Shown here: positions 2,897 to 32,822 of the stretch, piece by piece
Position numbering within the stretch: position 1 is the first letter of the stretch
Layout of the letters: each line of letters starts with the position of its first letter
DNA from: Gemmatimonadota bacterium
Lineage (GTDB): Bacteria; 4572-55; J002
Assembly (NCBI GenBank): GCA_003697105.1
Contig: RFFQ01000033.1
Location: forward strand, 1 to 35,425
Direction of reading: 5' to 3'
Length of the DNA: 35,425 bases
Translations under genes and position numbers: made by a program
Notes under the pieces: generated by a model
Seen by the model: only the letters and a program-made list of their open reading frames with translations
What the model was told of the DNA's origin: nothing
The model's database searches: none

Positions 2897-5800
2897 ATGT
2901 TTACCATTACACCACCTTTTGACGTGCTATGGCAACAATCTGTGCAAAAGCGGGTAGCCACCCAACATAGCGCCGTCGAGTTACTACTAGAGAAATATCA
3001 AGCCCACCTCGAAGCGATGCCCGCTATAGAGGATAATCCTCACTATCGCCGGGTAAAAGCGAAACTCAGCGAGGCTTCGGAGGTGTTCCCCCTGCGCGCC
3101 GTTCAGCAAGCCATTTATTACTCGGATGCCGGAACGGTGGTCGTACCCGATGAGATCAAACATCATTTGGTCAACATCAGTGCGCAATTTGTGGTGCGCC
3201 CGGGTTCGCTGGCGGACTTGCAAGCGTTCGTTCAACTGGCTTATCAGGAGCAAATTCGCTATACCATTCGCGGGTCTGGTACGTGGCCCTTCGGAGGCTC
3301 GATCCCGATGAATAAGGAGGTTGTTCTGGATCTCTCCTACCTGAATTTTCATCACTTGGATCTAGATCGGGCGCAGTTGACCGTTGCGCCGGGAACTGTT
3401 TTTGCCCCCATGCGGCAAATACTCCGCGATCAAGGGTTTGCTTTCCGGCAAGAGATCACCAATCCCCATTCCGGCACTATCTGTGGCTGGATTGCCACCG
3501 GTGGCTTGGGTATTGGTGCGTATAAGTACGGGCATGTGCAAGAGTCCGTCGCGGCAATCCTGTGGCTGACCCCCCAAGGCGAATGGCAAACCTTGACCCC
3601 AGACGATGATCGCTTTGACCTGCTGTTTGATTCTGAAGGGCAAATGGGAATTGTCGCAGGTGCGGTACTGGATGTAAAGCGCTTGAGTTACGTCTCAAAA
3701 CCGTATGCCTTTTCCTTTGATAACGCGGTGGCAGTCCAAACTTTTGTGGAGTTGATCGCTAAGTGGGAATTGCGACCCTCATCAATGATCTACTTTGACA
3801 AACATTACATGAATATCACGTATGCTATTGAATGCGAACACCTTGAACAACATGTGCAAGAGGCCCTCCGTACCGAAGATGACCTGCGTATCCGCCGGGA
3901 TCGCCACCGTAAAGAGGTCATCGAACGCCTGAATGGGCTTGACCATGTGCTGGTGTTGGAATTTGACACCCCAGAAGATTACCAACGCGCGTTGAAATAC
4001 CAGCCGTTCCGCAAGATGGGCGAACAACTGTTTCATGGGGTGTCATTCCGCCGTCTTCCCACAGATGTGGCACACCATATGTGGGAGCATCGCTACGCGC
4101 CGGTGCAGATGAAGCAAAAAGGACCCTCTATGCTGGTTGGAGAGACTATCTTGCCGGTTAAAAACTTCCCCGAATACATGAATTTTGTGGAAGCCGCCAT
4201 CAGCAATTGGACAGGCAATCCGGTAAAAACGGAAGCACACGTTCTTAGCCCGCAGGAAGTTCTCATCCAGACCATCTTGCTTGCCGACATCGATACCCTG
4301 CGGCATAAACTCTACCTCGGTTTGGTACCGTTCATGATCCAAACGTCGATCCAGTTGGGCGGCAAACCGTATGGTACGGGCATCTGGAACCTGCCTTTCC
4401 TCAAAGCCCGGATGAAAACCGGTGATGGGAAGCACATCCAAAAGTTAATCGATACCAAAAATACCCTCGATCCCCAGCACCTGATCAATCAATGCAAATT
4501 TATCAATGAACAGGGGCGCAAACCCGCTTTAAAGCTTTTTCAAAAAATGTCACCTGTCTTGGTCGAAAAAGGTGTTAAATGGCTCTATCAAGGCAAGTTG
4601 AAGGAGGGGAACTCGCTAGGGAAATGGCTTTGGAAGGCAAATAAAGCCCTTTTTCCGCAAATGGTGCCCCCTCAACTTCAGGCAAAGCGTCCGTCGCTAC
4701 TGGAAATCAATTCGGTCTGCGCGGAATGCGATAGCTGTGAGAAAGTCTGCCCCACCAGTGATGTGTTTGGTATGTGGGGGTTAGCGACACCAATTACCCG
4801 CCGCAAAACAGCCAATCGATTGGCTCGCGGTGAGGCGATCACCCCCAGTGAAGCCCTCGGTTTTCTGGTTTGTACCCGGTGCGATAACTGCACCCGCGTC
4901 TGCCCCACGGATATTCCACTAACCCGCATGTTTGACGCTGTTGAAGCGGATACCCATTACCAACTTGCCCTTGCCAAAGGGCTGGGTGCAGACCCCACCG
5001 ATAGCGATGATCTGGCAGAGAAAAAGAACGAATTTATTACTCGCTTTTGGGATATTATGAAGGAAAGCCCGCTCTACTTGCCCCACACTTTAGCGGAACA
5101 AAAAGAGGAAAAATCCCACTTACAACACGGCTTGAACATCATTTATCCCCGCGGGTTCGCCTACGCTGAACTTTTCATCGACCCCGAAACCTGCATCAAA
5201 TGCGGCATGTGTGCGCATGAAAACGCATGTACCTATGGGGCACGCAAAGGCGCCCCGCGTGAAATCCCCCAACTGATCGATCAGAACTGTGCCCTGTGCA
5301 ATGCCTGCATCAATTATTGTCCTCAAAATAAAGCAGTCCATGCGGAACGGGAGTACTTGGATAAGTTGATTAAGAACGCCATCGATTTGGAAGAACGCAA
5401 ATTCTGGCAGACCGAAAAGTCCTTTTTGCGCGATACGACCACCATTCAACGCTCCCCAGAGATCACGCATCAAGCGGATATTTATGTCACGGAAAATATT
5501 ATTATGGAGATCGATAAAGAATCCTCCACCGGACAAATTCCCGTCTCTGGGATGGGGCAAGGCGACCGGCACACGGGTATTGGGTTTGATGCCGAGCGGT
5601 TTTCGCACTTCCACATTGTCGGTCCGGCTCAAAACCGCTTGCATGAGGGCGACCCCGATGAAGAACTCTCCGTAAAATTGGGCAAACGGCATCGCTACTG
5701 CAAATTTGATGCGGACGAAAATCTCCACAATCCCCCGTATCACAAGATCGAACTTCAGACCCCGATGATGTATAACGCCGTGCCGCTGGATAGTAATGGG

Positions 5801-8800
5801 CATGTGGAATTGGCATTCATCAAGGTTGCCGAGCAACACCAAACATTGGTTCATATGACGCTGGATCGCTTTTTGGAGTATTACACCTTTTTCCTGAGTG
5901 AAGGCGGTTACGGCGAATTACCTCCGGTGATTGTCCCGCGTGTGGATGAAGAATTTATCGACCACCTGCAAGTCCAACCGACCGTCACTCGCAAATTACT
6001 GATGGACTTGTGGAAAATGCCAATGTTTGAGATCATCTACCACAAGGAGATGAACCAAACGATTGAGTTTGTCCGTAATTCGGTGCAAGCCCTAAACCGG
6101 GAGATCCCCCTCATCTGCGGCTATCTGGAAGTCTCCGAACATGACATCATCGGGGGGGAGCAAATCATCCCCCATGTGCTAGAAATGTTGGAGGACTTTT
6201 TACGCCTTGAGGTGGACGTGATTCACATCCGGGGTAAACGCAACAAAGACCACTATTTTACCACCTCGCAAGCCGTGCGCGCCATTCACCATTATCTGGT
6301 GGAGAGTGGACGGCGCCATCTGGTGTCACTGATTGCTTCCGGCGGTATCCGGTTGGCATCGGATAGCCAAAAAACGATTCAACGCGGCGCAGAAGCCACC
6401 TTGCTTGATTTCGCGGCTCTCTTGGCACTAGACCCCGATGCCTACAAAGCCATTGTTGAGCATAAAACCACTACCGAACACCTGATCGATCTGGACATTG
6501 AGTGGGCGATAGAACGATTAAACAACCAGATGGAATCCCGAAAAGTGCAAATTTTAGAAGTACTTGGCGCCGCCGGATTCAAGGATTTGAAAAAAACTGT
6601 GGGCGAAGAAGGACGCCTGATCGACTTTTTTCAACTGGAAGAACGTATCCAAAAAGAGATTTTTGAACAGGATGAGAAACTCAGCCAACAGGCAGAATTG
6701 AACCGGCAATTGATGACCACCGAAAGAGTGAATCCGGCAGATGCCTTTCGCTATTCGGAACTGAAACAGAAAGTGCAACCGCTAAAATCTCCGCACTACT
6801 TTTATGAACTCGGTGAGGTCAACCAGACGGTTTATCAACGGGATCACGTGTGGCCCGGCACCTTGATTGAGACCTTAGGACGCATGGCGGCAGGAGACCC
6901 CGCCATGTTTTATCTGAAGCATGTTAAATCTGTCGGCTTGTTAGGAGACGGCTTCGATGTGATGAAAATTCTCTACCAGCGGGACCCAGACACCATCGAT
7001 GAGACCGAACTAGACCGCGTTCAGACGGCGTTACCGCTCGATAAAGGGCTTATCCTCAAACAACCGTGGATGCTCGGCGGCAAATCGGTCGGTTCTATCG
7101 GGTTGGATACGTGGCGTGCGCATGTTATTCTTTCTCGTGAATTGGGCATTCAATACGATACCGGCGAAGGCGGCTACCCGACCTGTTTTTTCCTTAATCG
7201 CAAAGGGGAACCCATCTTTTTCACGGAGCGGGATATCCAACGCATCAAATACTTCTTTAAACATGATACCCATTACACCGTGAAAGAAATCAAGGCAATC
7301 TTACACGAAAATCGGATCACCGAGTCCACGCATCCCCACATTTATGAACAATTGAATGAACACCCAGACCTGAAACCATTCCTCTTTTACGAAGTGATTA
7401 GTACTGAGGATGAGCCGTTTGTCTCAACCGAACTCAAAACCGGTCTGTTTGGCGTGACCAAAGAGACCATCAAAAAAGCAAGACGGGTGGTCATCGCTTA
7501 CAGTCAAGGCGCTAAAATGGGGATTGGGGGACACATTCTAGCCCGGAAGGTCAATAAGTTGGTCTCGTACCTGCGCGGGATTCAAGGCTTGGAAGAACTC
7601 AATACCAGCCGTATCCAGCAATTGATCAAACGGATCGAAAAACTTGAAAAAGATGCCACTCACCCCATGCACGACCTCGCCACATCTGCCATGCCGGAAC
7701 TGATGCGTGCTAATGATGACGGCGAAATTTACCCCGAACTGAAAACATGGCTCTGGCAGATTCAACAGCGGACATACGAACTCCATGAAGCCAAAAAAAT
7801 CGACCCCATCGATTTTGAGTACCTGATTCGCCTCAGTGAGGAGGTCATCAGCTATAGCTACACCAGCGTGATTTCACCGTTTCCGTTCCATAACTGCTAT
7901 TCTATTGAAGATGTCAAAGCATTCATTGACATGGTGCGTATGATCAACCCGCAGGCGGTGATTTCGGTCAAGGTATCGCCTTCGGTGGACATCGAATTCA
8001 TTGCCGCCGGTCTAGCACGTATTGCCAAAGATAACACGGAGGAAGCGGAAAAGGGCATTAAAAATTCAACACCCCTAAATCCTGACTACGGCATGAAGAT
8101 CGAAATTTGGCTGGATGGTCCTCGGGGAGGGACGGGCGCATCGCCTAACATCATTAAGGGGCAGATGGGAATGCATCTGGAGTACGCGATTCCGTTGATC
8201 CATGACCGGTTAGTCCGCGATGGTTTGCGGAATTATGTGAAATTTATGGTCTCTGGGGGGATTCGCACCTATGAGGATGTGATCAAAGCGGTGGCGTTGG
8301 GAGCAGATGGTGTAATTTGGGGCACGGCGCCGCTGGCAGCAATTGGGTGTGATCGCAATCGCAATTGCCATGACGGATGCTCGCGCGGGATTGCCACTAG
8401 CAATTTAATCATGCAGAACCTGCGCAATGTAGATTTGAACTCCAAGCAGATGATCAACGCCTTCGTCATCATGCAAATGCAGGTGATTCGGGCGTTGGCG
8501 GGGCTAGGATTTACCGACATCCGGCAGTTGCGGGGTCGTTTTGATAAAATTCAGTGGTTAGGCTTGAAAGAGCGGGTTGATTTTCGCATTCGGCAGCGCA
8601 AATCGTTTGCTCAACAGATGCAGAGCGCCGGCTACAAAGCGCCGGAACGACAGCCGCACGCAACCGGACAGACCAATTGCGGTGTGGCGGCATTGATCGG
8701 TTCCCATCCGGTACCGAGTTTTATCATGGATGAAGCCCTCAAATCGATGAAAAATCGGGGGATGGATGGTGTCGGTATTGGTAAGACCCTCTGTTTTAAT

Positions 8801-11389
8801 ACCTTCCGAGATCACTATGCCTACCGGGTGATGGTCAAAGGCAAATTGCAATTGGAGGTAGAAGCGGAAGGCAAGAGACCAGATGCTAGAGCGGAACTAC
8901 TCGCGTATCGTTACCAATTAGCGGCAAAGATCAAGCGAATTTTCCTCGATCCGGATTTCGATTTTGCCGGAGATGTGGATGTGACGCAGGTACGGGAATC
9001 TTACAAAAAAGATGATCAGGGTCGAGAACGTGATTACCGCGATTTTGGTAATGAAAACACCGACCCGGGAGATGTTTTCCGCTGGTTCGTGCGAGTCAAG
9101 CCGGAAAAATTAGCCCACTTCATTGAACAGGAGATTTTGCAGCAATCGCGCTATGAATACATCCGTGAATACTTCCCCGAGGTGACCCAAGAGAATTACA
9201 CCGAGCACGCGAAATTTATGCAAAAGGCAGAAGATTTGTTTGTATTCAACCATTCTACGCGATTGACACAGGTGTTATACGTCTGGCAACCGGCGGATCC
9301 GCGAGTTGAAGGCGACCCGAATGATGACGCCGTATTGCATCGACTCAATGAGGTCAGTAAAGCGTACCCTCAAATCACCCATCGAGAGAAGTATGTGCCC
9401 CGGCTACGCAAAATTGCCGCGGTGATGTCCTGTGGTAAAAACTTTGCCGTGTGGAAAACCGCCGGACGTGAGATTCCGTGGGAAACACCGCCTTCACCGA
9501 ATAACATCATCCATGTGCGGCTGGCAACCGGTTCGATTGTGGAGCAGATGAATGCCCACCCATTTGGTAAGCTCCACACCGCTTTGACGCACAACGGGGA
9601 AACCACAAATTATGAAGCGTTAAAGCAACGGGTGGAACAGTTCGGCTTACCGCCACTGGCCACGACCGACACCGAAGTCGCCGCCCTCAAATTCCACTTG
9701 CTGGCGGAAGAGTTGGAATATCCCGATTGGGCACTCTTCGAGAGCTTCTCCCCAACGACCGGTGATGATCTTGCACTCGTTCCACCAGAATTACGTCACC
9801 AACTGGAAGAGGTTCAACGGGTTGAATTTACGTCTTCACCGGATGGACCCTACCAGTATCTGTGTTTACGCCATCACCCAGAATCCAACGTGACCGAACG
9901 CATCGATCTGAAAGACCCGGCCGATTTGCGTCCGAGTACCACCGGTTTTTGGTCGGATGGCAAAAAAACCTTTAGTGCCATTGCCTCGGAAGAACAAGCC
10001 ATCCAAAAAATGATGCAACTGTTGGATCAAGAAGGGCTTATTGACGGTGGTGTACCCGATCAGACGATGGTCAGTAATGGTATGATCAACCGTTTTGCCT
10101 TCAATGAACAAGGGCATATTGCCAATGTTGAATTTGTGGATCGCTATGGGCAGGAGATTCCGTTGGTAGATTACGGACGGCATTACAGCATCCGCCGTAC
10201 CCCGCTGGAAACACCGGTAAATCCCGAGACGTTAAGCGAGCAGATGGAGGCGCATCTACAACATCTGACCGCTTGGATACGGTCACAATTGCCAGAATGG
10301 GATTTTAACACGTACCGGTGGGTCATCGAAAATCTGAAAGACCATCCAAACCTTTCAGATTCAGAGAAAATCGCCACGTTCACCTATTTCATCGATTATC
10401 TGCGAACGATGAACACCGGTGACAAGGCAAAAAGCTCGCTGTTGGATGTGACCCGCACTATCTTTTATCGATTTTTGGATGCCTTGCCACAAGGGGAGGC
10501 GGCGGCGTGGGTTCGTATCACGTACCTCCAACCCGAAGTACCGCCGGTTTCTGGAGATCAGACATTGCTCATCGATGCCACAGGTTTTGAGCCGGAAGGT
10601 ACGAATCCGCGCCAATCTTTGGGCGCATTGTTGGGCATGGCGTATGACCGGGGTTGGCGCAACTTTTTGCTGTACCGCGTGAACGGGCAACGGCTTATTT
10701 CCACCGGCGTGATGGGGAACACCCACACCGATGATGTGGTAATAGATGTGTACGGGACACCGGGCGAATATTTTGGCGCGTTTATGCAAGGAGGACTCGT
10801 CCGGTGCCATGGCAATGCGCAGAACTTCACCGCGATGACCATGCATCATGGTACTTTACAGATTTTCGGCAATGCGGGCAAAGTGTGTGGTTATGCCTCT
10901 AAGGGAGGTACCGTCTTTATTTTAGGGGATGTCGTTGATCGGGTATGGACGAATTCGGTCAATGACCCCCGCTGCGATGACCTCAACGTTCATGTGTTGG
11001 GGAGTGCCAGTAAATATGCGGGGGAATCACTGATGGGAGGTGATTTCTTCTTCGGAGGGATGTATTTTGATCATACCGGAGCATTACGGGTGCAAGACCG
11101 CCCGTATCGAGGCACAAAATTGTTTGGTGGCGCCTCACGGGGAAATTTCCTCTTTTTTGACCCCTATGACCGGCTCGATCCGGCGCAGTACACGCATGGC
11201 AACATCAGCCCTATAGATGACCAAAGCTGGATTAAATGGACAAAAAGGATTACCGCAACGCTCACTCTAGCAGGCGTACCTCTTGTGGAAGGACGGTTTC
11301 AAGCAGATAACCGGTGGTTTGACCTCGACCCAAGCCATTTTAAGTTGATAGTCCCTCGCGGAGGGCTGAAAGGTTACGAATCGCACTGA
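2897..11389 (+). CDS. Giant FAD/Fe-S/FMN glutamate synthase fusion with internal glutaminase domain
   Basis: 2830 residues; ATG with CAGGAA 8 bases upstream. Order: FAD_binding_4 domain (about 85-262) with FAD-oxidase C-terminal part (to about 535, ending in a LDPQHLINQCKF motif); cluster motifs C608/611/614/618 with C659/662/665/669, then C766/769/772/778 with C798/801/804/808; a degenerate barrel-like region (about 880-1240); an intact glutamate-synthase FMN barrel (about 1300-1900) with GGTGASP, SGGIRTYEDV and a cluster motif C1818-x5-C1824-x3-C1828; class II amidotransferase (about 1928-2330) with C1928, R2208, N2233-G2234; GXGXG domain (about 2580-2770). Known glutamate synthase transfers glutamine amide nitrogen to 2-oxoglutarate using electrons through Fe-S and FMN. 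Here the electron entry seems to be a FAD dehydrogenase instead of the NADPH-linked small subunit. The electron donor is unknown. The domain order is permuted relative to standard GltB. It is probably cytoplasmic, and no gltD-like gene is in the window. Confidence 0.9.
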   Translation: MFTITPPFDVLWQQSVQKRVATQHSAVELLLEKYQAHLEAMPAIEDNPHYRRVKAKLSEASEVFPLRAVQQAIYYSDAGTVVVPDEIKHHLVNISAQFVVRPGSLADLQAFVQLAYQEQIRYTIRGSGTWPFGGSIPMNKEVVLDLSYLNFHHLDLDRAQLTVAPGTVFAPMRQILRDQGFAFRQEITNPHSGTICGWIATGGLGIGAYKYGHVQESVAAILWLTPQGEWQTLTPDDDRFDLLFDSEGQMGIVAGAVLDVKRLSYVSKPYAFSFDNAVAVQTFVELIAKWELRPSSMIYFDKHYMNITYAIECEHLEQHVQEALRTEDDLRIRRDRHRKEVIERLNGLDHVLVLEFDTPEDYQRALKYQPFRKMGEQLFHGVSFRRLPTDVAHHMWEHRYAPVQMKQKGPSMLVGETILPVKNFPEYMNFVEAAISNWTGNPVKTEAHVLSPQEVLIQTILLADIDTLRHKLYLGLVPFMIQTSIQLGGKPYGTGIWNLPFLKARMKTGDGKHIQKLIDTKNTLDPQHLINQCKFINEQGRKPALKLFQKMSPVLVEKGVKWLYQGKLKEGNSLGKWLWKANKALFPQMVPPQLQAKRPSLLEINSVCAECDSCEKVCPTSDVFGMWGLATPITRRKTANRLARGEAITPSEALGFLVCTRCDNCTRVCPTDIPLTRMFDAVEADTHYQLALAKGLGADPTDSDDLAEKKNEFITRFWDIMKESPLYLPHTLAEQKEEKSHLQHGLNIIYPRGFAYAELFIDPETCIKCGMCAHENACTYGARKGAPREIPQLIDQNCALCNACINYCPQNKAVHAEREYLDKLIKNAIDLEERKFWQTEKSFLRDTTTIQRSPEITHQADIYVTENIIMEIDKESSTGQIPVSGMGQGDRHTGIGFDAERFSHFHIVGPAQNRLHEGDPDEELSVKLGKRHRYCKFDADENLHNPPYHKIELQTPMMYNAVPLDSNGHVELAFIKVAEQHQTLVHMTLDRFLEYYTFFLSEGGYGELPPVIVPRVDEEFIDHLQVQPTVTRKLLMDLWKMPMFEIIYHKEMNQTIEFVRNSVQALNREIPLICGYLEVSEHDIIGGEQIIPHVLEMLEDFLRLEVDVIHIRGKRNKDHYFTTSQAVRAIHHYLVESGRRHLVSLIASGGIRLASDSQKTIQRGAEATLLDFAALLALDPDAYKAIVEHKTTTEHLIDLDIEWAIERLNNQMESRKVQILEVLGAAGFKDLKKTVGEEGRLIDFFQLEERIQKEIFEQDEKLSQQAELNRQLMTTERVNPADAFRYSELKQKVQPLKSPHYFYELGEVNQTVYQRDHVWPGTLIETLGRMAAGDPAMFYLKHVKSVGLLGDGFDVMKILYQRDPDTIDETELDRVQTALPLDKGLILKQPWMLGGKSVGSIGLDTWRAHVILSRELGIQYDTGEGGYPTCFFLNRKGEPIFFTERDIQRIKYFFKHDTHYTVKEIKAILHENRITESTHPHIYEQLNEHPDLKPFLFYEVISTEDEPFVSTELKTGLFGVTKETIKKARRVVIAYSQGAKMGIGGHILARKVNKLVSYLRGIQGLEELNTSRIQQLIKRIEKLEKDATHPMHDLATSAMPELMRANDDGEIYPELKTWLWQIQQRTYELHEAKKIDPIDFEYLIRLSEEVISYSYTSVISPFPFHNCYSIEDVKAFIDMVRMINPQAVISVKVSPSVDIEFIAAGLARIAKDNTEEAEKGIKNSTPLNPDYGMKIEIWLDGPRGGTGASPNIIKGQMGMHLEYAIPLIHDRLVRDGLRNYVKFMVSGGIRTYEDVIKAVALGADGVIWGTAPLAAIGCDRNRNCHDGCSRGIATSNLIMQNLRNVDLNSKQMINAFVIMQMQVIRALAGLGFTDIRQLRGRFDKIQWLGLKERVDFRIRQRKSFAQQMQSAGYKAPERQPHATGQTNCGVAALIGSHPVPSFIMDEALKSMKNRGMDGVGIGKTLCFNTFRDHYAYRVMVKGKLQLEVEAEGKRPDARAELLAYRYQLAAKIKRIFLDPDFDFAGDVDVTQVRESYKKDDQGRERDYRDFGNENTDPGDVFRWFVRVKPEKLAHFIEQEILQQSRYEYIREYFPEVTQENYTEHAKFMQKAEDLFVFNHSTRLTQVLYVWQPADPRVEGDPNDDAVLHRLNEVSKAYPQITHREKYVPRLRKIAAVMSCGKNFAVWKTAGREIPWETPPSPNNIIHVRLATGSIVEQMNAHPFGKLHTALTHNGETTNYEALKQRVEQFGLPPLATTDTEVAALKFHLLAEELEYPDWALFESFSPTTGDDLALVPPELRHQLEEVQRVEFTSSPDGPYQYLCLRHHPESNVTERIDLKDPADLRPSTTGFWSDGKKTFSAIASEEQAIQKMMQLLDQEGLIDGGVPDQTMVSNGMINRFAFNEQGHIANVEFVDRYGQEIPLVDYGRHYSIRRTPLETPVNPETLSEQMEAHLQHLTAWIRSQLPEWDFNTYRWVIENLKDHPNLSDSEKIATFTYFIDYLRTMNTGDKAKSSLLDVTRTIFYRFLDALPQGEAAAWVRITYLQPEVPPVSGDQTLLIDATGFEPEGTNPRQSLGALLGMAYDRGWRNFLLYRVNGQRLISTGVMGNTHTDDVVIDVYGTPGEYFGAFMQGGLVRCHGNAQNFTAMTMHHGTLQIFGNAGKVCGYASKGGTVFILGDVVDRVWTNSVNDPRCDDLNVHVLGSASKYAGESLMGGDFFFGGMYFDHTGALRVQDRPYRGTKLFGGASRGNFLFFDPYDRLDPAQYTHGNISPIDDQSWIKWTKRITATLTLAGVPLVEGRFQADNRWFDLDPSHFKLIVPRGGLKGYESH

Positions 11390-11471: not shown

Positions 11472-12059
11472 CTACCGGTAATACGGATTTAATCCTAAAT
11501 CATGTTCCGTCACATCGTAAATTTCACCTAAATCGGGGACGTTTTGGCGTAGGAGGGTCTCGATCCCTTGTCGCAGGGTAGCGGCTGCCATACCACAGCC
11601 TTGACAGCCACCGCCCATCTCCAAATAGAGGTCGTTGTCCTTGAGGTCGATGAGTGCCACCCAGCCGCCGTGCATCGCAATCGCCGGGTTGATGTGAGAA
11701 TCGATAATCTGCTGGATTCGTTCCGCCATAGGGTTATCTGCCAGATGTTCTGGCAATGTACTACTGTTCATCCCACTTTTATCAATTTTAAAGCCGCTCC
11801 CCATGCTGGTTTCCAGATAATCGATTTTGATATTTTCCACATAGGGTAGGCTTTGCGGATCGACATAGACATCAAATTCTTCAAAATTGACGGTGGTATC
11901 GGTAGGAGCAATTTCATCTTCAGCCACCAACGCTAAACCAAATTCGGCTTGTTGCATATTGATGGGTTTGGTGGTAATGCGAATCCCGGTGATGTTCTCT
12001 TCGGTCTCATCCATCAGTTGTAAAATTTTCGTTTTGGCATTGCTGGTAATGGTTATCAT
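11472..12059 (-). CDS. nfuA: NfuA-type Fe-S cluster carrier/biogenesis protein
   Basis: 195 residues, the usual length of NfuA (about 190). The start is preceded by AAGAGGTGA at good spacing. Residues 1-95 match a degenerate A-type scaffold domain (opening MITITSNAKTKI, with ITGIRI), lacking that family's cysteines as is normal for NfuA. Residues about 110-190 are a NifU C-terminal-like domain with HGGWVALID and the cluster-binding pair C152-x2-C155 in GGGCQGCGMA. In characterised relatives a homodimer holds a [4Fe-4S] cluster between the two CxxC motifs and delivers it to target enzymes, acting under stress. It is convergent with the Fe-S-rich glutamate synthase fusion and has its own promoter candidate, so a supply role for that enzyme is plausible but not shown. 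Confidence 0.92.
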   Translation of the reverse strand: MITITSNAKTKILQLMDETEENITGIRITTKPINMQQAEFGLALVAEDEIAPTDTTVNFEEFDVYVDPQSLPYVENIKIDYLETSMGSGFKIDKSGMNSSTLPEHLADNPMAERIQQIIDSHINPAIAMHGGWVALIDLKDNDLYLEMGGGCQGCGMAAATLRQGIETLLRQNVPDLGEIYDVTEHDLGLNPYYR

Positions 12060-12229: not shown

Positions 12230-12328
12230 CACGGTTGTGTGTGTGTGTTTTTGCGTGATTCCCGCATTCAGATGTTTTCTTATTTGAAAACAACTTATCA
12301 TCTTATTAATTTTAAGGAGGAGGAAATT

Positions 12329-14422
12329 ATGATGGTGTCACGAACGTTTGGATTTTCACTGGTAATTTTAGCTTTCGTGGTGATGTGTGTTGCGCCGGTT
12401 GTCACCGCAGAATCGCTATTTGTGGTCAAAAATGCGGCAGGCGATACGGTTTTTGTCGTTACCGAAGAAGGGATTGTGGTGCGCGGTCGGGATGACAGCG
12501 GGAACATGGTCAATTTGATGACCATTTCCCCGGACAGTATGGTGTTTGAGTTGCCCGATGCCGTGACTCGTCCGGGCGGTGGCGGGGGTTACCAATTTCG
12601 CGGTCGTGGTGGGGGCGGCCGGACAGATGCGGTCAATTTACTGACCTTGACCTCCGATAGTGTTGTATTTGACCTGCCCGGTGCGGCAATTCGTCCGGGC
12701 GGTGGCGGGGGTTACCAATTTCGCGGTCGTGGTGGGGGCGGCCGGGAGGATGTTTCTAACTTCCTGACCCTAACCCCAGACAGCATCGTGTTTGAGTTAG
12801 CAAATACGGCCATTCGTCCGGCGGGCGGTGGCGGTTACCAATTTCGCGGTCGAGGCGGTGGCGGTCGTGTCGCGGAACCAGCTTGGTTGCACATCACTCC
12901 GGATAGCATGGTCTTTGACCTGCCCGGGACGGCGGGCCGTCCGGCAGGAAATGGGGGCGGGTATCAGTTTCGAGGTCGCGGGGGCGGTGGTGGCGGTCGC
13001 ACCGGCGAACTCAATTTGATGACCCTCTCTACGGATCCAGACTTTAGCGGTTCAATTGATGAGGAACGGATGCTCTGGTATCCGGTTAAAAATGCGTTTT
13101 TGGTGGGACGGGTGCTGGTAGAACATCCAGATAGTGTGGGTTCTAATTCTCTGGCGGCAGGATACCAAAACAAAGCGATGGGTGATTTTTCACAAGCAAT
13201 GGGGTATCAAAATATTGCCCGCGGACGTGGGGCTTCTGTATTTGGTTACCAGTCCCAAGCCAACGGTGAAAATTCCTTTGCCTTTGGTAATCAATCTATT
13301 GCCAATGGAGATAATTCCTTTGCCTTCGGTTCAGAAACCCGGTCAACACAGGAAAATACATTTTCCATTGGTAAAGAAGCATGGGCACTGGGCACCAATG
13401 CCTTTGCAATAGGTTTGATCTCTACCGCGAATGACTCCAACTCGATTGCCATTGGTACACGAGCGTTCTCCTACGGTGAAAATGCGTTAGCTTTAGGAAC
13501 AAACACCACGACTACTGAATCTAATGCCATTGCCATGGGTCATAGTAGTTTCGCGTGGGGCAGTGGGAGCGTCGCCATCGGGGATCAACCGGCGGCCTCG
13601 GGTATCAACTCCATCAGTATAGGCACTCAAGCGGTTTCGGCTAGTGACGGTACCGTGGCATTGGGTCAACAGGCATCCGCCGAGGGGCAGTATGCGATTG
13701 CCTTTGGCTATGGTGATTCTGCCAGCGGCTATTTTAGCTCCGCGATAGGTTACAGAAATAAAACGCTGGGATATGGGAGTGCTGCCTTCGGCTATCAGAC
13801 AACATCAACCGGTGACTACAGTATCGCTATGGGCAATAATGCAACGGCGGCGTCCTATTCCTCATTTGTGACCGGACGCTATAATGAGATCACCGGCAAT
13901 ACGTATTTTTGGGAGGACACTGACCCGCTCTTTGTGGTGGGAAACGGTTTCGATGCGAATAACCGCAGTAATGCCCTGACCTTGCTAAAAAATGGGGAAC
14001 TCATCGTGGCGGGCACGGTGAATGGTTCTTCCGATGCACGGTTAAAGACGAATATCACGCCATTGCGTAATGTCCTCAGTAAACTGGCTCAGATCAATCC
14101 GGTCTATTTTGAATTTAAGAACCAGCAGACACACCCGGCAGGGACACATATCGGATTTTTAGCGCAAGAAGTGCAACAGGTCTTCCCAGAGCTGGTCAGC
14201 GAGGATGCTTCCGGTTATCTAGCTGTCGCGTATGGCAATATGACGGCGGTATTGCTCCAAGCACTCAAGGAACAACAACAAGAGATTGACCGGATTCGCA
14301 GCGAAAATGACCAACTGCGTGCAAAAGTGGATCAATTGGAATCGTTGGAAAAACGGGTGAGGGAGCTGGAAGCCTTGTGGATACCGCACCAACCAGATGT
14401 TACGACTCGCGCCGCACGATAA
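12329..14422 (+). CDS. Exported trimeric-fibre-like protein: RGRGGGG repeats, YadA-head repeats, Peptidase_S74 chaperone
   Basis: 697 residues from ATG 12329, preceded by a very strong AAGGAGGAGG (12314-12323); a GTG 90 bases upstream lacks such a site. A signal peptide ends near VVTAES (about residue 28). Four 41-residue repeats each contain GYQFRGRGGGG (nucleotides 12515-13015). They are followed by eighteen 14-residue repeats of the YadA/trimeric-adhesin head type (pattern S.AIG...A.G, 13142-13897). From about residue 567 the motif SSDARLK and the later GFLAQEVQQVFPELV define a Peptidase_S74 intramolecular chaperone with predicted catalytic S568 and K573. A coiled coil (about 655-690) ends the protein. 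In known S74 proteins the chaperone trimerises the fibre and then cuts itself off. There is no YadA membrane anchor, so the route of surface attachment is unclear. Confidence 0.88.
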   Translation: MMVSRTFGFSLVILAFVVMCVAPVVTAESLFVVKNAAGDTVFVVTEEGIVVRGRDDSGNMVNLMTISPDSMVFELPDAVTRPGGGGGYQFRGRGGGGRTDAVNLLTLTSDSVVFDLPGAAIRPGGGGGYQFRGRGGGGREDVSNFLTLTPDSIVFELANTAIRPAGGGGYQFRGRGGGGRVAEPAWLHITPDSMVFDLPGTAGRPAGNGGGYQFRGRGGGGGGRTGELNLMTLSTDPDFSGSIDEERMLWYPVKNAFLVGRVLVEHPDSVGSNSLAAGYQNKAMGDFSQAMGYQNIARGRGASVFGYQSQANGENSFAFGNQSIANGDNSFAFGSETRSTQENTFSIGKEAWALGTNAFAIGLISTANDSNSIAIGTRAFSYGENALALGTNTTTTESNAIAMGHSSFAWGSGSVAIGDQPAASGINSISIGTQAVSASDGTVALGQQASAEGQYAIAFGYGDSASGYFSSAIGYRNKTLGYGSAAFGYQTTSTGDYSIAMGNNATAASYSSFVTGRYNEITGNTYFWEDTDPLFVVGNGFDANNRSNALTLLKNGELIVAGTVNGSSDARLKTNITPLRNVLSKLAQINPVYFEFKNQQTHPAGTHIGFLAQEVQQVFPELVSEDASGYLAVAYGNMTAVLLQALKEQQQEIDRIRSENDQLRAKVDQLESLEKRVRELEALWIPHQPDVTTRAAR
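12515..13015 (+). repeat. Four tandem 123-bp coding repeats (41 residues each)
   Basis: Period exactly 123 bp. The anchors lie at 12568, 12691, 12814 and 12937. Copies 1 and 2 share a perfect 55-bp block (12568-12622 and 12691-12745), which points to recent duplication or gene conversion. Copy 3 is diverged and copy 4 carries small Gly/Asn insertions. Each unit encodes a PDSMVFDLP-type strand followed by RPGGGGGYQFRGRGGGGR. Confidence 0.9.
13142..13897 (+). repeat. Eighteen 42-bp coding repeats (YadA-head type)
   Basis: The 252 residues divide exactly into eighteen 14-residue units of the form xNSxAxGxxxxAxG, the left-handed beta-roll repeat of trimeric adhesin heads. The DNA copies are diverged, so the repeat is maintained at protein level. 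Confidence 0.85.
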
Positions 14423-15768: not shown

Positions 15769-15812
15769 TATGTTCCTGTGATGATTCTACTTGAATTGAA
15801 TGAGAAATATTG

Positions 15813-18800
15813 ATGAAACCATTCCGTTATATCTTGTTTTTTATCTGGCTCTTCATTGCGCCTCTGTATGCGCAAACCGCTGATATATCTGGCACGATAC
15901 ATTCCTTCCATGATTATATCTGGACAGAAGTTGATTATGAATGGATCGATCTGACTGAGATCGGTACACCTGTTCTTGAAGACGAATGGTTCAGCTTCCC
16001 GTGGATCGATGAAAATATGCCGGGTAGTGACGAAGGGTTTGCTAGCCCTTATGATGCCTCTTTTACCCCGCTCGGCTACGATCTTGGTTTTGATTTCCCG
16101 TATTATGGCTCGTATTATCGCTATATTTATATTGGCTCTAATGGGTTTTTAACATTTTACCCCTTTTGGGATCGGACATATCTAAACAGTGAATTACCTA
16201 ACATAGAGCGTATTCCCCAAGCGATCATTGCACCGTATTGGTCGGATATGTACCAACCGGAAGATGGTACAATTTATTATTACCGCGATGGCGAACGCTT
16301 CATTGTGGAATACCATCACTGGGGAGAGTGGATCGCAGGGACTCAACTTACCTTTCAGGTCATTCTTTCTGCAGAGGGTTCGATCACGTTTCAATACCAA
16401 CAGGTGCAGGAATACGCCCCAATTTACTCTATCGGAATTGAAAACGATGATGGGCAGTTCGGTGTACAGGTCTCCTATAATGAGTATTTTCTAAGTGATA
16501 GTTTGGCTATTCGTATTGAAGGTGCGCCGCTCAGCAATGTAACCGTGGAATTAAGTGGTGGCCACAGTGAGACGACTCTGACCAACCTCAATGGGCAGTT
16601 CCAATTTGAGGATGTCCCGACGGGGCTAGATTATACGCTCACACCGCACCTTCCGAATTGGGTATTTTTACCTGACCATATTGAAATTGACCCCCTGGAG
16701 GCGGACCAATTTGTCACATTTCAAGGCGGTGAGCCGTTTGAACAATTGCCCTATAGGGATGTCATTGGCACAGATTATGGGATCAGTTCGGATTATCGTC
16801 TTTCGCGCGGGGCAAGTTGGGCAGATTACGATAACGATGGGTTTATTGACCTCTTTGTAGCGAGTGTCGGCGTGAATGAACTGTACCATAATGACGGTGA
16901 TGGCACGTTCACCCGCGTTTATCAGGGCGAAATTATTGTGGATGAAGCCCGTTCCACCGGTGCGTGTTGGGGCGACTATGATAATGATGGTGACCTCGAC
17001 CTGTTTGTGTGTAACTATCCCGACCCCAATTACCCGAATTTTAATAACAGCCTGTATCAAAATAATGGCGATGGCACGTTTACCAAAATTGAAGATGACC
17101 CCGTCGTGACCAGTGGAGGTAAATCACAAGATTGCGCGTGGGGAGACTACAACCAGGATGGCTACCTCGATCTGTTTGTCATCAATTATGATGAAAATAA
17201 CTTTTTGTATCAAAATAACGGTGATGGCACGTTTACTCAAATCACAGAAGGGGTCATGGTCAATGATGGCGGATTCTCATACGGGTGTAACTGGGTCGAT
17301 TATGATTCAGATAATGATCTGGATATGTTTGTGGCAAATAAGTACGAAAACAGCCTTTACCACAACAATGGTGATGGTACGTTCAGTAAAGTCACCCGCG
17401 GCGCCCTCGTAACGGATGCCAGCCCCTCCTATGGGGCAAGCTGGGCAGATTATGACCAGGATGGTGACTTAGATGTGTATGTCGTGAATGCCAACGAAGA
17501 ACCAAATAACCTTTATCAAAATAATGGTGACGGTACGTTTACAAAGGTGACGGGAGGAAATCTCGTTACGGACTTTTTTATCTCCAAAAGTAGTAGTTGG
17601 ATTGATTTTGATAACGACGGTGATCTCGACCTGTTTGTCGCCAACGAACAGTACCAACGTGCGGCGGGAGATAATTTGATGTACCGTAACGAGGGCAACG
17701 GTCAGTTCACCCGCTTTTCGTTGAAGGATACCTATACGTACTCTGGCGGTTGCGCGTTTGGGGACATCGATAATGACGGTGACCTCGATGGGTTTGTCAC
17801 CAATGATTACGGCTTACCCAATACGTTGCTTATTAACGAGGGTTCTAGTGGACATTGGGTGGATATAACCGGTGTGGGCACCCTCTCGAATCGTGCCGCT
17901 ATCGGGGTGAACATTCATGTGAAAGCGACAATAAACGGGCAACCGGTCTGGCAGATGCACCAACTGATGACCCAGACCGGTCGATACGGTCAAAATCATC
18001 TTGTAGCCCATTTTGGGCTGGGGGATGCCACCCAAGTGGATTCGGTGGTGGTGCAGTGGCCTAGTGGCGTGATAACAACCCTCGGTGCCCAGCCTGTTGA
18101 TACCAATATTACCATCACAGAGCCGGAACATGAGCAAGTATTACGTGCCAATTTTTACACGCTAGACCGTACCGGCAATGCTCCGAAAACCGTTCAATTC
18201 ACAGATATTTCCACCCACACCAATACTCAAGTAACCCAGTGGGAATGGGACTTTGACAACGATGGTGTAATTGACTCCGAAGAACAGCATCCGGTGTGGA
18301 CATATAACGAACAAGGCGGGCACACCGTCACCTTAATCGTCTCTAATGGCACCGTACGGGACACGCTGACCCGCATGGATTATATTCATCTCAATCAATT
18401 TGAGTTTTTCAGCCAAAGTGTGGTTGCCACCGATGGCGGACGTTCCCGCGGGGGAAGTTGGGCCGATTATGATCAGGATGGCGACCCGGATTTATTTGTC
18501 GCTAATAACGGGAATAATTTTCTCTATCAGAATCAGGGGGATGGCTCATTTGTGGCAATTACGGAAGGAGCGATTGTCAATGATGGCGGAAACTCCACCA
18601 GTGCCACTTGGGGCGATTATGATAACGACGGCGACCTCGACCTGTTTGTGACGAATGCCTTTGGTGAATCTAATTTTCTATACCAGAATGAGGGAGACGG
18701 CTCCTTTACCAAAATCACAGATACCGAGTTGGTCTGGTATGGGGGCAATTATACCGGTGCCAGTTGGGGCGATTATGATAACGACGGTGACCTCGACCTG

Positions 18801-21434
18801 TTTGTGACCAGTTTGGGCGACCCTTTTAATTCCCTTTTTGAAAATCAGGGAGACGGTTCCTTTTACGAAGTACTCCACGAGGATGGTTCATTTGTATTTG
18901 ATGATGAAGGTAGTGACCGTTCCTATAGCTGTAGTTGGGCAGATTATGACCACGATAATGACCTCGACCTATTTGTGGCAAATGATGGACCGAATTTTCT
19001 CTATCGAAATAACGGTGATAAAACATTCACGCGGGTCACAACGGGAGATGTGATCACGGATGCGGATGTCTCCAAAAGTGGAAGTTGGGTTGATTATGAT
19101 AATGATGGCGATTTAGACCTCTTTGTAACCAATGGCGGCTTTGATTATAATGACCAGAGAGTGTTCCAGCCCAACCGGTTGTACCGCAATGAAGGCAATG
19201 GGAACTTCACCAAAATCACGGCAGGAGCGATTGTCACTGACGAAATGTCCTCCGTCGGGTGTAGCTGGGCAGATTATAACAATGATGGTGACCTCGATCT
19301 GTTTGTGGCAAATTACAATCAACATAACTCGTTCTATGTAAATCAGGGGGATGGCACGTTTCGGCGGGTGGATTATATCGATATGGTGACCCAAGAAGGG
19401 AGTTCCGAAGGTTGTAGTTGGGCAGATATTGACCAGAACGGGTCACCAGACCTCTTTGTAGCCAATCGAGGTGAAACTGGAGAAGCCAACGCGATCTACC
19501 GGAATACCGGCAATATGAATCATTGGTTCAAAGTACATTGCACCGGTGTGATTTCCAATTCTGCCGCGATTGGAACAGAGGTCTCGCTTTTTGCAGGTGG
19601 TACGGCACAAACCCGCCTACTTTCCGCTTCCAGTGGATTGGGCAGTCAAAACAGTTTGATCGCGAACTTTGGTGTCGGGAGCGCAACCGTTATCGATTCG
19701 CTCATCATCACGTGGAATCACCCCACAATTGGCTGGGACCGGGGGATTCAACGGGTATATTACCATTTACCCGTGGATACGATGGTGACCATCTACGAAA
19801 TTGATCATCCAGTGCTGATCGATTCCACGACACAGGTGCTAAACGCACTCGCTACAGAAGATGAAGCGTATGTGATTCGAGCGGCACTATTTAGCGTGAC
19901 AAAACCCGATTCCATCGGAATTTACTATGGGAAAGGCGCCGACCTGTTCCATGAAGGACAGCGGTTATCCATGACCCTCACGGGAACGCGGGACCAGTTT
20001 ATCGCGGAAGTGACGATTCCGGCATCAGATGTGACCGCCGAGGGGTTGTGGTATCGCTTTTATGCAGTAAATGAGCGGGGTCAAATGGCTTTTGACCATT
20101 TTCGGGATGTGGAAGTTCAGATTACCCATTACGACCGTATCTGGGCAAAAAGTGCGTACCCCGAGGGGATCCCTCCTGAAGCGTGGTACACCGTTTCATT
20201 GCCCTTTGCCGCGGATATAGAGCTGGCGGATGTGCTGGAACCCCAAGAGTTTAACAGTAGTGGTGAACCCACAAATTGGTCGGTGTACCGCTATGATAGT
20301 GTTGAAGGATTGATACCCGCCACCACGCTAACAAAACAACGGGGTTACTTTATTCATCATCGCCAGAACGAACCCGTGATTTTGGTTGCCGATTCTGCCA
20401 AATCCTACCCGTTACGTTCTGTTTTTCCCACATTGACTTTGCGCCCGGGCTGGAATGTGGTACCGTGGACATTTGCCTTTCCGGGCACAATTACCCGCCT
20501 AGATTCCTTACGAATTGGGCAAATTTGGCAATTAGACGCCAGCGAATGGCAACTGAACTCGCAACTTAAACCCTTTGGTGCTTTTGCCGTAGAAAATCGG
20601 ACAGACTCCAATCTCTTGTTAAGTTCGGTTCTGGCATGGCAACCCCTCGATGCGTCTGCGGAAACCCCCATAAAGCCACTCTCGACGATGCAAACCTATA
20701 CCAGCGGAGCGGTCATCATCCCGTTTAGCGTGGAATCTGCCACCCGGAAAGACCGGTTTAATGCCCTTGGATTTTCGCCGTACGCCGCACGAGGTTGGGA
20801 TGCGCTCGATGCCTCTGAACCAATGGGCATCGGAGATTTTGTACGATTGTATTTTACCGGGCACGACCAACTCCCACTTGCTTATGATATTCGATCCGAC
20901 ACCGCCGAGGGTCATATCTGGCAAATGATAATTGAAAATCAATCCGGTGCAAATCAACTGAAGGTGGCATGGGATGTCGCCAGCGTCCCGGAAGGGTACC
21001 ATCTGGCAATTTTGGATGACGCCGGGCAAAAATGGGTTGATCCGTCGGTGGGGCACTATTCGTTTACCGCGCATCCGGTGAACCGGTTTGAAGTGATCTT
21101 AGGTTCTGCCGCGTATGTTCAAGAGAAAATGAAGATGCTTGATCGAGCGATACCGGAACAGTTTTCCTTATCTCAAAATTTCCCCAATCCGTTTAACCCG
21201 GCAACAACAATCTACTATGATATTCCGGTTACCTCCTCAGTGACACTCCGTATTTATTCGATTTCCGGTCAGTTAGTCCGCACACTGGTGGATGAAACCG
21301 TCCCTCCGGGACGTTATGCGAAAATATGGGATGGACGTAATGAACACCATCAACCTGTACCGGGCGGTATTTACATCTATCGCTTGAAAACGGATCGTTT
21401 TAACCAGAGCCGTAAAATGCTATTACTCAAGTAA
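15813..21434 (+). CDS. Giant secreted protein: two seven-bladed VCBS propellers, ASPIC/UnbV, PKD, type IX sorting domain
   Basis: 1873 residues from ATG 15813 (an adjacent TTG adds only one residue). A signal peptide ends near PLYAQ. Order: Trp/Tyr-rich beta-sandwich (about 30-225); carboxypeptidase-regulatory-like domain (about 230-310); seven FG-GAP/VCBS repeats (about 320-675) with calcium loops such as DYDNDGDLDLF; an ASPIC/UnbV domain (about 680-770); a PKD domain (about 778-862, WEWDFDNDG); seven more VCBS repeats (about 868-1230); a second ASPIC/UnbV-like domain (about 1235-1330); a beta-rich stretch; and a C-terminal domain with NFPNPFNPATTI and GGIYIYRLKT (about 1785-1873), the FlgD-Ig type used for type IX export. 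It is probably displayed on or released from the cell surface and calcium-dependent. The stop at 21434 nearly touches the PEGA gene, suggesting an operon. No catalytic motif was seen. Confidence 0.92.
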   Translation: MKPFRYILFFIWLFIAPLYAQTADISGTIHSFHDYIWTEVDYEWIDLTEIGTPVLEDEWFSFPWIDENMPGSDEGFASPYDASFTPLGYDLGFDFPYYGSYYRYIYIGSNGFLTFYPFWDRTYLNSELPNIERIPQAIIAPYWSDMYQPEDGTIYYYRDGERFIVEYHHWGEWIAGTQLTFQVILSAEGSITFQYQQVQEYAPIYSIGIENDDGQFGVQVSYNEYFLSDSLAIRIEGAPLSNVTVELSGGHSETTLTNLNGQFQFEDVPTGLDYTLTPHLPNWVFLPDHIEIDPLEADQFVTFQGGEPFEQLPYRDVIGTDYGISSDYRLSRGASWADYDNDGFIDLFVASVGVNELYHNDGDGTFTRVYQGEIIVDEARSTGACWGDYDNDGDLDLFVCNYPDPNYPNFNNSLYQNNGDGTFTKIEDDPVVTSGGKSQDCAWGDYNQDGYLDLFVINYDENNFLYQNNGDGTFTQITEGVMVNDGGFSYGCNWVDYDSDNDLDMFVANKYENSLYHNNGDGTFSKVTRGALVTDASPSYGASWADYDQDGDLDVYVVNANEEPNNLYQNNGDGTFTKVTGGNLVTDFFISKSSSWIDFDNDGDLDLFVANEQYQRAAGDNLMYRNEGNGQFTRFSLKDTYTYSGGCAFGDIDNDGDLDGFVTNDYGLPNTLLINEGSSGHWVDITGVGTLSNRAAIGVNIHVKATINGQPVWQMHQLMTQTGRYGQNHLVAHFGLGDATQVDSVVVQWPSGVITTLGAQPVDTNITITEPEHEQVLRANFYTLDRTGNAPKTVQFTDISTHTNTQVTQWEWDFDNDGVIDSEEQHPVWTYNEQGGHTVTLIVSNGTVRDTLTRMDYIHLNQFEFFSQSVVATDGGRSRGGSWADYDQDGDPDLFVANNGNNFLYQNQGDGSFVAITEGAIVNDGGNSTSATWGDYDNDGDLDLFVTNAFGESNFLYQNEGDGSFTKITDTELVWYGGNYTGASWGDYDNDGDLDLFVTSLGDPFNSLFENQGDGSFYEVLHEDGSFVFDDEGSDRSYSCSWADYDHDNDLDLFVANDGPNFLYRNNGDKTFTRVTTGDVITDADVSKSGSWVDYDNDGDLDLFVTNGGFDYNDQRVFQPNRLYRNEGNGNFTKITAGAIVTDEMSSVGCSWADYNNDGDLDLFVANYNQHNSFYVNQGDGTFRRVDYIDMVTQEGSSEGCSWADIDQNGSPDLFVANRGETGEANAIYRNTGNMNHWFKVHCTGVISNSAAIGTEVSLFAGGTAQTRLLSASSGLGSQNSLIANFGVGSATVIDSLIITWNHPTIGWDRGIQRVYYHLPVDTMVTIYEIDHPVLIDSTTQVLNALATEDEAYVIRAALFSVTKPDSIGIYYGKGADLFHEGQRLSMTLTGTRDQFIAEVTIPASDVTAEGLWYRFYAVNERGQMAFDHFRDVEVQITHYDRIWAKSAYPEGIPPEAWYTVSLPFAADIELADVLEPQEFNSSGEPTNWSVYRYDSVEGLIPATTLTKQRGYFIHHRQNEPVILVADSAKSYPLRSVFPTLTLRPGWNVVPWTFAFPGTITRLDSLRIGQIWQLDASEWQLNSQLKPFGAFAVENRTDSNLLLSSVLAWQPLDASAETPIKPLSTMQTYTSGAVIIPFSVESATRKDRFNALGFSPYAARGWDALDASEPMGIGDFVRLYFTGHDQLPLAYDIRSDTAEGHIWQMIIENQSGANQLKVAWDVASVPEGYHLAILDDAGQKWVDPSVGHYSFTAHPVNRFEVILGSAAYVQEKMKMLDRAIPEQFSLSQNFPNPFNPATTIYYDIPVTSSVTLRIYSISGQLVRTLVDETVPPGRYAKIWDGRNEHHQPVPGGIYIYRLKTDRFNQSRKMLLLK
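16800..17805 (+). repeat. First block of seven VCBS/FG-GAP coding repeats
   Basis: Seven units of about 57 residues, each with a W(A/G/V/I)DYD.DGDLDLFV-type calcium loop and a following NNGDGTFTK-type strand. The seventh has AFGDIDNDGDLD. Seven units match one beta-propeller. Confidence 0.85.
18440..19470 (+). repeat. Second block of seven VCBS/FG-GAP coding repeats
   Basis: Seven further units with the same motif, ending in SWADIDQNGSPD. Parts of units 2 and 3 are almost identical in DNA (around 18612 and 18769), indicating recent homogenisation. The block is again followed by an ASPIC/UnbV-like domain, repeating the architecture of the first half. Confidence 0.85.
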
Positions 21435-32617: not shown

Positions 32618-32679
32618 AAATTCCCCCAGCATTAGGAGTGAAAAGTGAACGGGTTTTATACAGATAAAATTACGCTGTA

Positions 32680-32695
32680 ATATTCTTGAGAATAT
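32680..32695. promoter_or_regulatory. Operator-like palindrome before the PKD gene
   Basis: ATATTCT, a 2-base centre TG, and AGAATAT form a perfect 7+7 inverted repeat 63-78 bases before the start codon at 32617, in the region expected for its promoter. Such a symmetrical AT-rich site fits a dimeric regulator; no regulator is assigned. Confidence 0.4.
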
Positions 32696-32822
32696 CTGCA
32701 AAATTCTTCCACACATACCGGAAAGTCAGGATCGGTTTTTACAAGAGTACCCGTATAACCCACAAATCCGGTAGGTGTTTCGCTGAGTATTAGAGCAGCT
32801 CCTTTATGAGGTTGAATATAGC

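Follow-up and report, generated by a model that had tools for sequence, protein, structure and literature searches.

The window, by which we mean the whole stretch of 35,425 nucleotides analysed here from a genome of the Gemmatimonadota, contains a single uninterrupted open frame encoding a protein of 2,830 residues (Table 1). From the N terminus this protein consists of a FAD_binding_4 domain, a divergent FAD-oxidase_C domain, four [4Fe-4S] motifs and a degenerate barrel (barrel1), followed in its C-terminal half by an FMN barrel that carries a [3Fe-4S] motif, then by a glutaminase of class II and by a GXGXG domain. GC3 is even across the modules (0.54-0.59). The domain content and order proposed in a first-pass annotation, made from the sequence alone, were borne out by a Pfam search, in which Glu_synthase matched the whole protein at 3.3e-60 in three stretches.

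Table 1. Coordinates in the window of the fused gene and of its modules, cofactor ligands and predicted cleavage site
Feature	Position	Strand	Basis or remark
Fused glutamate synthase gene, whole	2897..11389	+	2830 aa; orthologues known
FAD_binding_4 (PCMH/VAO-type FAD domain), residues 97-233	3185..3595	+	Pfam 1.8e-24
Divergent FAD-oxidase_C cap, residues 274-534, signature PYGxGxWN (491-498)	3716..4498	+	weak Pfam match
First [4Fe-4S] pair, Fer4_8 type, C608/611/614/618 and C659/662/665/669	4718..4915	+	Pfam 608-673
Second, ferredoxin-like [4Fe-4S] pair, C766/769/772/778 and C798/801/804/808	5174..5338	+	Pfam 760-814
Barrel1, degenerate paralogue of FMN barrel, residues 851-1300	5447..6796	+	hhalign
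FMN/synthase barrel (Glu_synthase), residues 1391-1900	7067..8596	+	Pfam; alignment to A. brasilense GltB
[3Fe-4S] ligands C1818-x5-C1824-x3-C1828	8348..8380	+	aligned with A. brasilense C1102/C1108/C1113
Predicted self-cleavage site GQTN/C, between N1927 and C1928 (C1928 codon 8678-8680)	8666..8680	+	invariant motif; cleavage inferred
Class-II glutamine amidotransferase, residues 1928-2540	8678..10516	+	A. brasilense residues conserved
GXGXG beta-helix domain, residues 2541-2830	10517..11386	+	Pfam 1.3e-7; hhalign

The fused protein shares FMN, the [3Fe-4S] cluster, the class-II glutaminase residues and GXGXG with the NADPH-glutamate synthase GltBD of Azospirillum brasilense (PDB 1ea0/6s6x), and its barrel1 may resemble the central domain of that enzyme; its cofactor chain likewise parallels that of GltS (PMC8097209). 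Unlike GltBD, which is ordered glutaminase-central-FMN-GXGXG, carries an N-terminal Cys1 after a short propeptide and takes its electrons from GltD, the fused protein has its glutaminase between the FMN barrel and GXGXG, with the Cys at 1928, and it scores 113.6 bits against the NCBI GltB model PRK11750.1, below the cut-off of 1047 bits. Neither a GltD-like NAD(P)H/FAD module (Pfam) nor an NAD(P)H-binding Rossmann domain (Pfam and motif scan) was found in the 2,830-residue chain, whose only GxGxx[GA] strings lie in the FAD loop (203) and in a barrel1 segment (894).

The same gene in one frame is present in nine other genomes, all Calditrichota, at 57-70% identity, and recurs in public MAGs that were assembled independently (JAADJD010000038.1, WFTQ01000070.1, RFHE01000098.1). 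A 383-genome sample yielded two more copies, both full-length and 68-70% identical, and a scan of GTDB species genomes recovered these and another two. The length and conservation of the fused frame exclude chance. That an assembly artefact joined separate genes, the refutation anticipated by the first-pass annotation, might be suspected in a draft genome of 199 contigs; it is refuted by the recurrence of the frame, at this level of identity and beside different neighbours, in separately assembled genomes. Apparent natural splits of the gene in two genomes (G405 and G402) proved to be a frameshift and runs of N.

An alignment with nine other full-length or near-full-length proteins supports the earlier statement that the catalytic and cofactor motifs are in place. 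All 16 cysteines of what had been described as up to four [4Fe-4S] motifs are present and invariant, as are the three [3Fe-4S] cysteines (1818/1824/1828), the glutaminase residues, the SGGI of both barrels and, in the FMN barrel, the QGAK loop; the FAD loop is almost invariant. No published description of the fused architecture was found in a literature search covering mostly open-licence papers, in agreement with the suggestion that no enzyme of this kind had been characterised. Based on these comparisons, we regard the fused protein as a real and conserved glutamate synthase domain architecture that is apparently undescribed.

The survey of genomes that had been proposed for this architecture located it in the Calditrichota, so that it is not confined to the window. 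Within that phylum the fused gene or fragments of it were found in 16 of the 41 genomes examined, in members of five families; a sixth family (f247) had it in none of 16 genomes. It was absent from the one other genome examined of the window's own phylum. In a tree the window's protein falls, without a firm position, among Calditrichota sequences, and the gene may have been either inherited or transferred. No conserved neighbourhood of the fused gene was seen among the genomes inspected. In the window a convergent NfuA-like Fe-S carrier gene (11472-12059, minus strand; Fe-S_biosyn and NifU) follows it and does not lie beside the relatives inspected. Large surface-type proteins occupy 12239-14422, 15810-21434 and 27965-32716, with features including YadA-head/Peptidase_S74, FG-GAP/UnbV ending in a FlgD-like tail, and PKD-like repeats in a long series.

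Several other genomes encode the core of this enzyme in pieces, with Fer4-barrel1, Fer4-FMN barrel and glutaminase-GXGXG as separate operon genes in the order of the fused protein. These two-barrel operons (G025, G118, G042, G143, G307; also G040, where both barrels are fused in one gene) differ from the fused enzyme in comprising two or three genes and in having no FAD_binding_4. Some of them lie beside glnA (G118, G040) and amtB (G118), which supports a role in ammonia assimilation, and FlpD, MTHFR and DUF5981 genes stand upstream of several of them. Combinations of glnA, amtB, FlpD/MvhD-type, MTHFR and DUF5981 genes precede the two-barrel split genes at L026:4357-13834 (G118), L029, L030 and L032, an arrangement that points to one more kind of electron-entry partner. 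At L028:1-5979 a split operon is followed by HdrC/HdrB-like genes and by a protein with HdrA-like and GltD-like matches, and the two-barrel operon of G025 is adjoined by another FMN protein related to glutamate synthase (L010:3017-4600).

By profile comparison the fused sequence is closest to the archaeal/clostridial-type split glutamate synthase and not to GltB: its modules match the clostridial enzyme at 1.4e-61 (FMN), 9.2e-29 (glutaminase) and 1.9e-17 (GXGXG; hhalign), and the latter two match GltB much more weakly. In Monoglobus (L085) such a synthase is made up of GATase (373 aa), Fer4-FMN (501 aa) and GXGXG (240 aa) proteins, together with genes for an Fe-S protein and a FAD oxidoreductase. 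The clostridial type ties Fer4 to the barrel as the fused enzyme does; the latter differs in joining everything in one chain, in its second, degenerate barrel, in its internal glutaminase and in having a FAD_binding_4/Fer4_8 module where the clostridial type has a nearby FAD-dependent oxidoreductase gene. The description of the enzyme as a permuted glutamate synthase is formally correct with respect to GltB. Because the fused order is the operon order of the split enzyme and the sequence is of the archaeal/clostridial type, fusion of split genes nevertheless looks like the simpler history.

Barrel1 keeps the phosphate-site motif SGGI (1148-1151) and matches FMN barrels at 9.7e-40 over 356 columns (hhalign), and its profile clearly marks it as a paralogue of the FMN barrel, a product of duplication. 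The same profile matches the FMN domain of GltB at 2.5e-10 and its central domain at 2.3e-7, against 2.5e-4 for the control barrel IMPDH. The central and FMN domains of GltB show no mutual match in this comparison (0.037), and split-type barrel1 alone matches the central domain at just 4.8e-4. The central domain of GltB is a truncated barrel, and it is disputed whether this domain arose when the FMN barrel was duplicated or had a separate origin (2021 review, PMC8097209); we consider the resemblance of barrel1 to it suggestive in this respect.

At the other end of the chain, FAD_binding_4 was matched in all five aligned family members, and FAD-oxidase_C (274-534) was matched at 0.0033 in the window protein alone and at 8.2e-8 in the best relative. 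A predicted model of the module (mean pLDDT 56), used for fold class only and too weak to place cofactors, matched D-lactate dehydrogenases in a fold search. By these domains and this modest model the module has the fold of D-2-hydroxyacid dehydrogenases. HxGDGNxH and GEHG, the metal/substrate motifs typical of those enzymes (GlcD/D-LDH/D2HGDH), are absent from all family members and PYGxGxWN is kept instead. The different electron entry claimed for this enzyme stands insofar as no GltD-like module was found by Pfam. Given the missing motifs, the FAD module could be a relay or could accept another donor.

Stand-alone relatives nearest the FAD module include proteins of 877-1030 aa (L079-L082; relatives of GlcD/GlcF, YdiJ and LctD) that combine FAD_binding_4, FAD-oxidase_C, Fer4_8 and CCG domains. 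They share the FAD module and the first Fe-S pair with the fused enzyme, and differ from it in that CCG domains take the place of the synthase and that their neighbours are an AFOR_N protein or genes of Rnf type. In three genomes (L079, L080, L081) the FAD-FeS-CCG oxidoreductase gene has as neighbours a small ferredoxin-like gene and a short protein of AFOR_N type, the domain of the latter having been tested in L079; at L082:1-7504 it adjoins a cluster resembling the Rnf complex. The PYGxGxWN signature of the fused family is shared, in the form PYG.GIWN, by L079-L081 and G252. In the last of these, whose phylum offered two genomes for finding further relatives, the Fer4-barrel1 gene is immediately preceded by a separate FAD-Fer4 gene, an adjacency that connects FAD module and synthase while the two remain unfused.

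We propose that the fused protein is probably a glutamate synthase in which GltD has been replaced by a FAD/Fe-S module of the D-lactate-dehydrogenase fold, with a split synthase fused to it and the product cleaved by itself. Exchange of the electron-entry partner has precedents in ferredoxin-dependent glutamate synthase and in putative F420-dependent, FrhB-linked glutamate synthases (PMC9012536); the donor modules of both are unrelated to FAD_binding_4, and other glutamate synthases are not known to have an electron-entry module like that of the fused enzyme. It is unlikely, by comparison, that the FAD module serves as a reductase or has a regulatory role in a synthase fed by ferredoxin, entering at the ferredoxin-like clusters, or by NAD(P)H acting directly on FAD, since the chain has no recognisable NAD(P)H-binding Rossmann domain and the FAD loop, with the invariant cap residues K406, E446, H448 and PYGxGxWN, implies a conserved small-molecule site. 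MurB, of the same FAD superfamily, has its FAD reduced directly by NAD(P)H. A feed of this kind would also be consistent with the missing dehydrogenase motifs, with the CCG-domain homologue beside an apparent Rnf operon and with the FlpD/MTHFR-type genes that split relatives have instead.

In the reaction proposed, 2-oxoglutarate, glutamine and two electrons would give two glutamate. A reduced donor would deliver two electrons to the FAD of the module with the D-lactate-dehydrogenase fold, from which they would travel to FMN in single-electron steps, by way of both [4Fe-4S] pairs and then the [3Fe-4S] cluster. Ammonia freed from glutamine by the glutaminase would reach the FMN site through a putative tunnel and combine there with 2-oxoglutarate to 2-iminoglutarate, which FMNH2 would reduce to glutamate. 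LctD of the bifurcating lactate dehydrogenase complex is the best PDB hit by sequence for the FAD-module profile, and the same cofactor chain might run in reverse or bifurcate, with electrons from glutamate or FMNH2 driving reduction of an acceptor at the FAD module. This we judge improbable: no Etf-like gene was recognised among the neighbours scanned, the fully conserved glutaminase residues fit synthesis, and glnA and amtB accompany the split forms.

The more specific version in which the self-cleaving enzyme couples oxidation of an organic hydroxy-compound (e.g. D-2-hydroxyglutarate or D-lactate) directly to the synthesis of glutamate, with neither NAD(P)H nor free ferredoxin involved, is rather doubtful. 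If it held with D-2-hydroxyglutarate, oxidation would yield the very compound to be aminated and the amination would be redox-neutral. A gene for a D-isomer-specific 2-hydroxyacid dehydrogenase lies on the same contig (26491-27504), with no evidence linking it to the fused enzyme.

Next to the FMN site lie two insertions specific to the family, some 75 and 90 residues long (~1430-1507 and ~1562-1655), and the loop reads KMGIGGH, with His in place of Gln of the canonical KPGEGGQ. Both features would be consistent with a synthase-like enzyme that aminates another 2-oxo acid and does not make glutamate, an alternative to which we give little credence: the GGH variant is also seen in clostridial and split synthases, the fused enzyme is the sole glutamate synthase found in its own genome, and canonical GltB occurs mostly in other Calditrichota genomes than the fused enzyme (15 and 16 of 41 respectively, three with both; one-sided p = 0.057, confounded by ancestry). 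This distribution hints, with the same confounding by ancestry, that the fused enzyme replaces canonical GltB in the Calditrichota. The window's genome also encodes one glutamine synthetase and three ELFV-dehydrogenase (GDH-type) genes, and with the latter glutamate could be made otherwise.

The C-terminal modules retain sequence features of a glutamate synthase core; a structure predicted for this half of the chain (pLDDT 41) was too weak to place cofactors and was set aside. A Pfam GATase_6 core spans 2204-2264 (2.8e-7), and Cys1, Arg31, Arg210, Asn231, Gly232 and Asp273 of the A. brasilense enzyme all have aligned counterparts. The GXGXG domain scores 31.8 bits in the window protein, just below the cut-off of 32.5, and 41.6 bits, above it, in a relative (L025).

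Class-II glutaminases carry the catalytic Cys at a free N-terminus, and aligned GltB and split glutaminase proteins have it behind short leaders. In the fused family the Cys1 equivalent is internal, at C1928, and on this ground we predict autocleavage of a precursor between N1927 and C1928 into chains of ~1,927 and 903 residues. The cut would most likely be made by the precursor itself and the two chains would stay together. The linker before C1928 varies in length and sequence, and GQ[ST]N followed by Cys is invariant across the family; the predicted 903-residue chain is similar in size to the glutaminase-GXGXG subunit that split operons encode as a protein of its own (870-900 aa). We know of no internal self-cleavage in class-II amidotransferases, and GQ[ST]N might instead be conserved as a structural linker. 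An internal translation start before C1928 was rejected as a general route, as two members have no ATG, GTG or TTG in the 40 preceding codons and no candidate start codon is common to the family before the glutaminase Cys. The earlier description of the enzyme as one polypeptide holds for the open frame; it may apply to the precursor only, given the need of the glutaminase Cys for a free N-terminus.

Glutamate synthase is a textbook iron-sulfur flavoenzyme put together from modules. Here its electron-entry module appears to have been swapped for one of an unrelated FAD family with everything fused into one gene, and unfused forms persist in other bacteria. The position of the glutaminase nucleophile behind ~1,900 residues predicts internal self-cleavage, and barrel1 provides material for testing duplication against independent origin of the GltB central domain, a question left open (PMC8097209). 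The fused enzyme also suggests a route of ammonia assimilation in an uncultured and little-studied group of bacteria.
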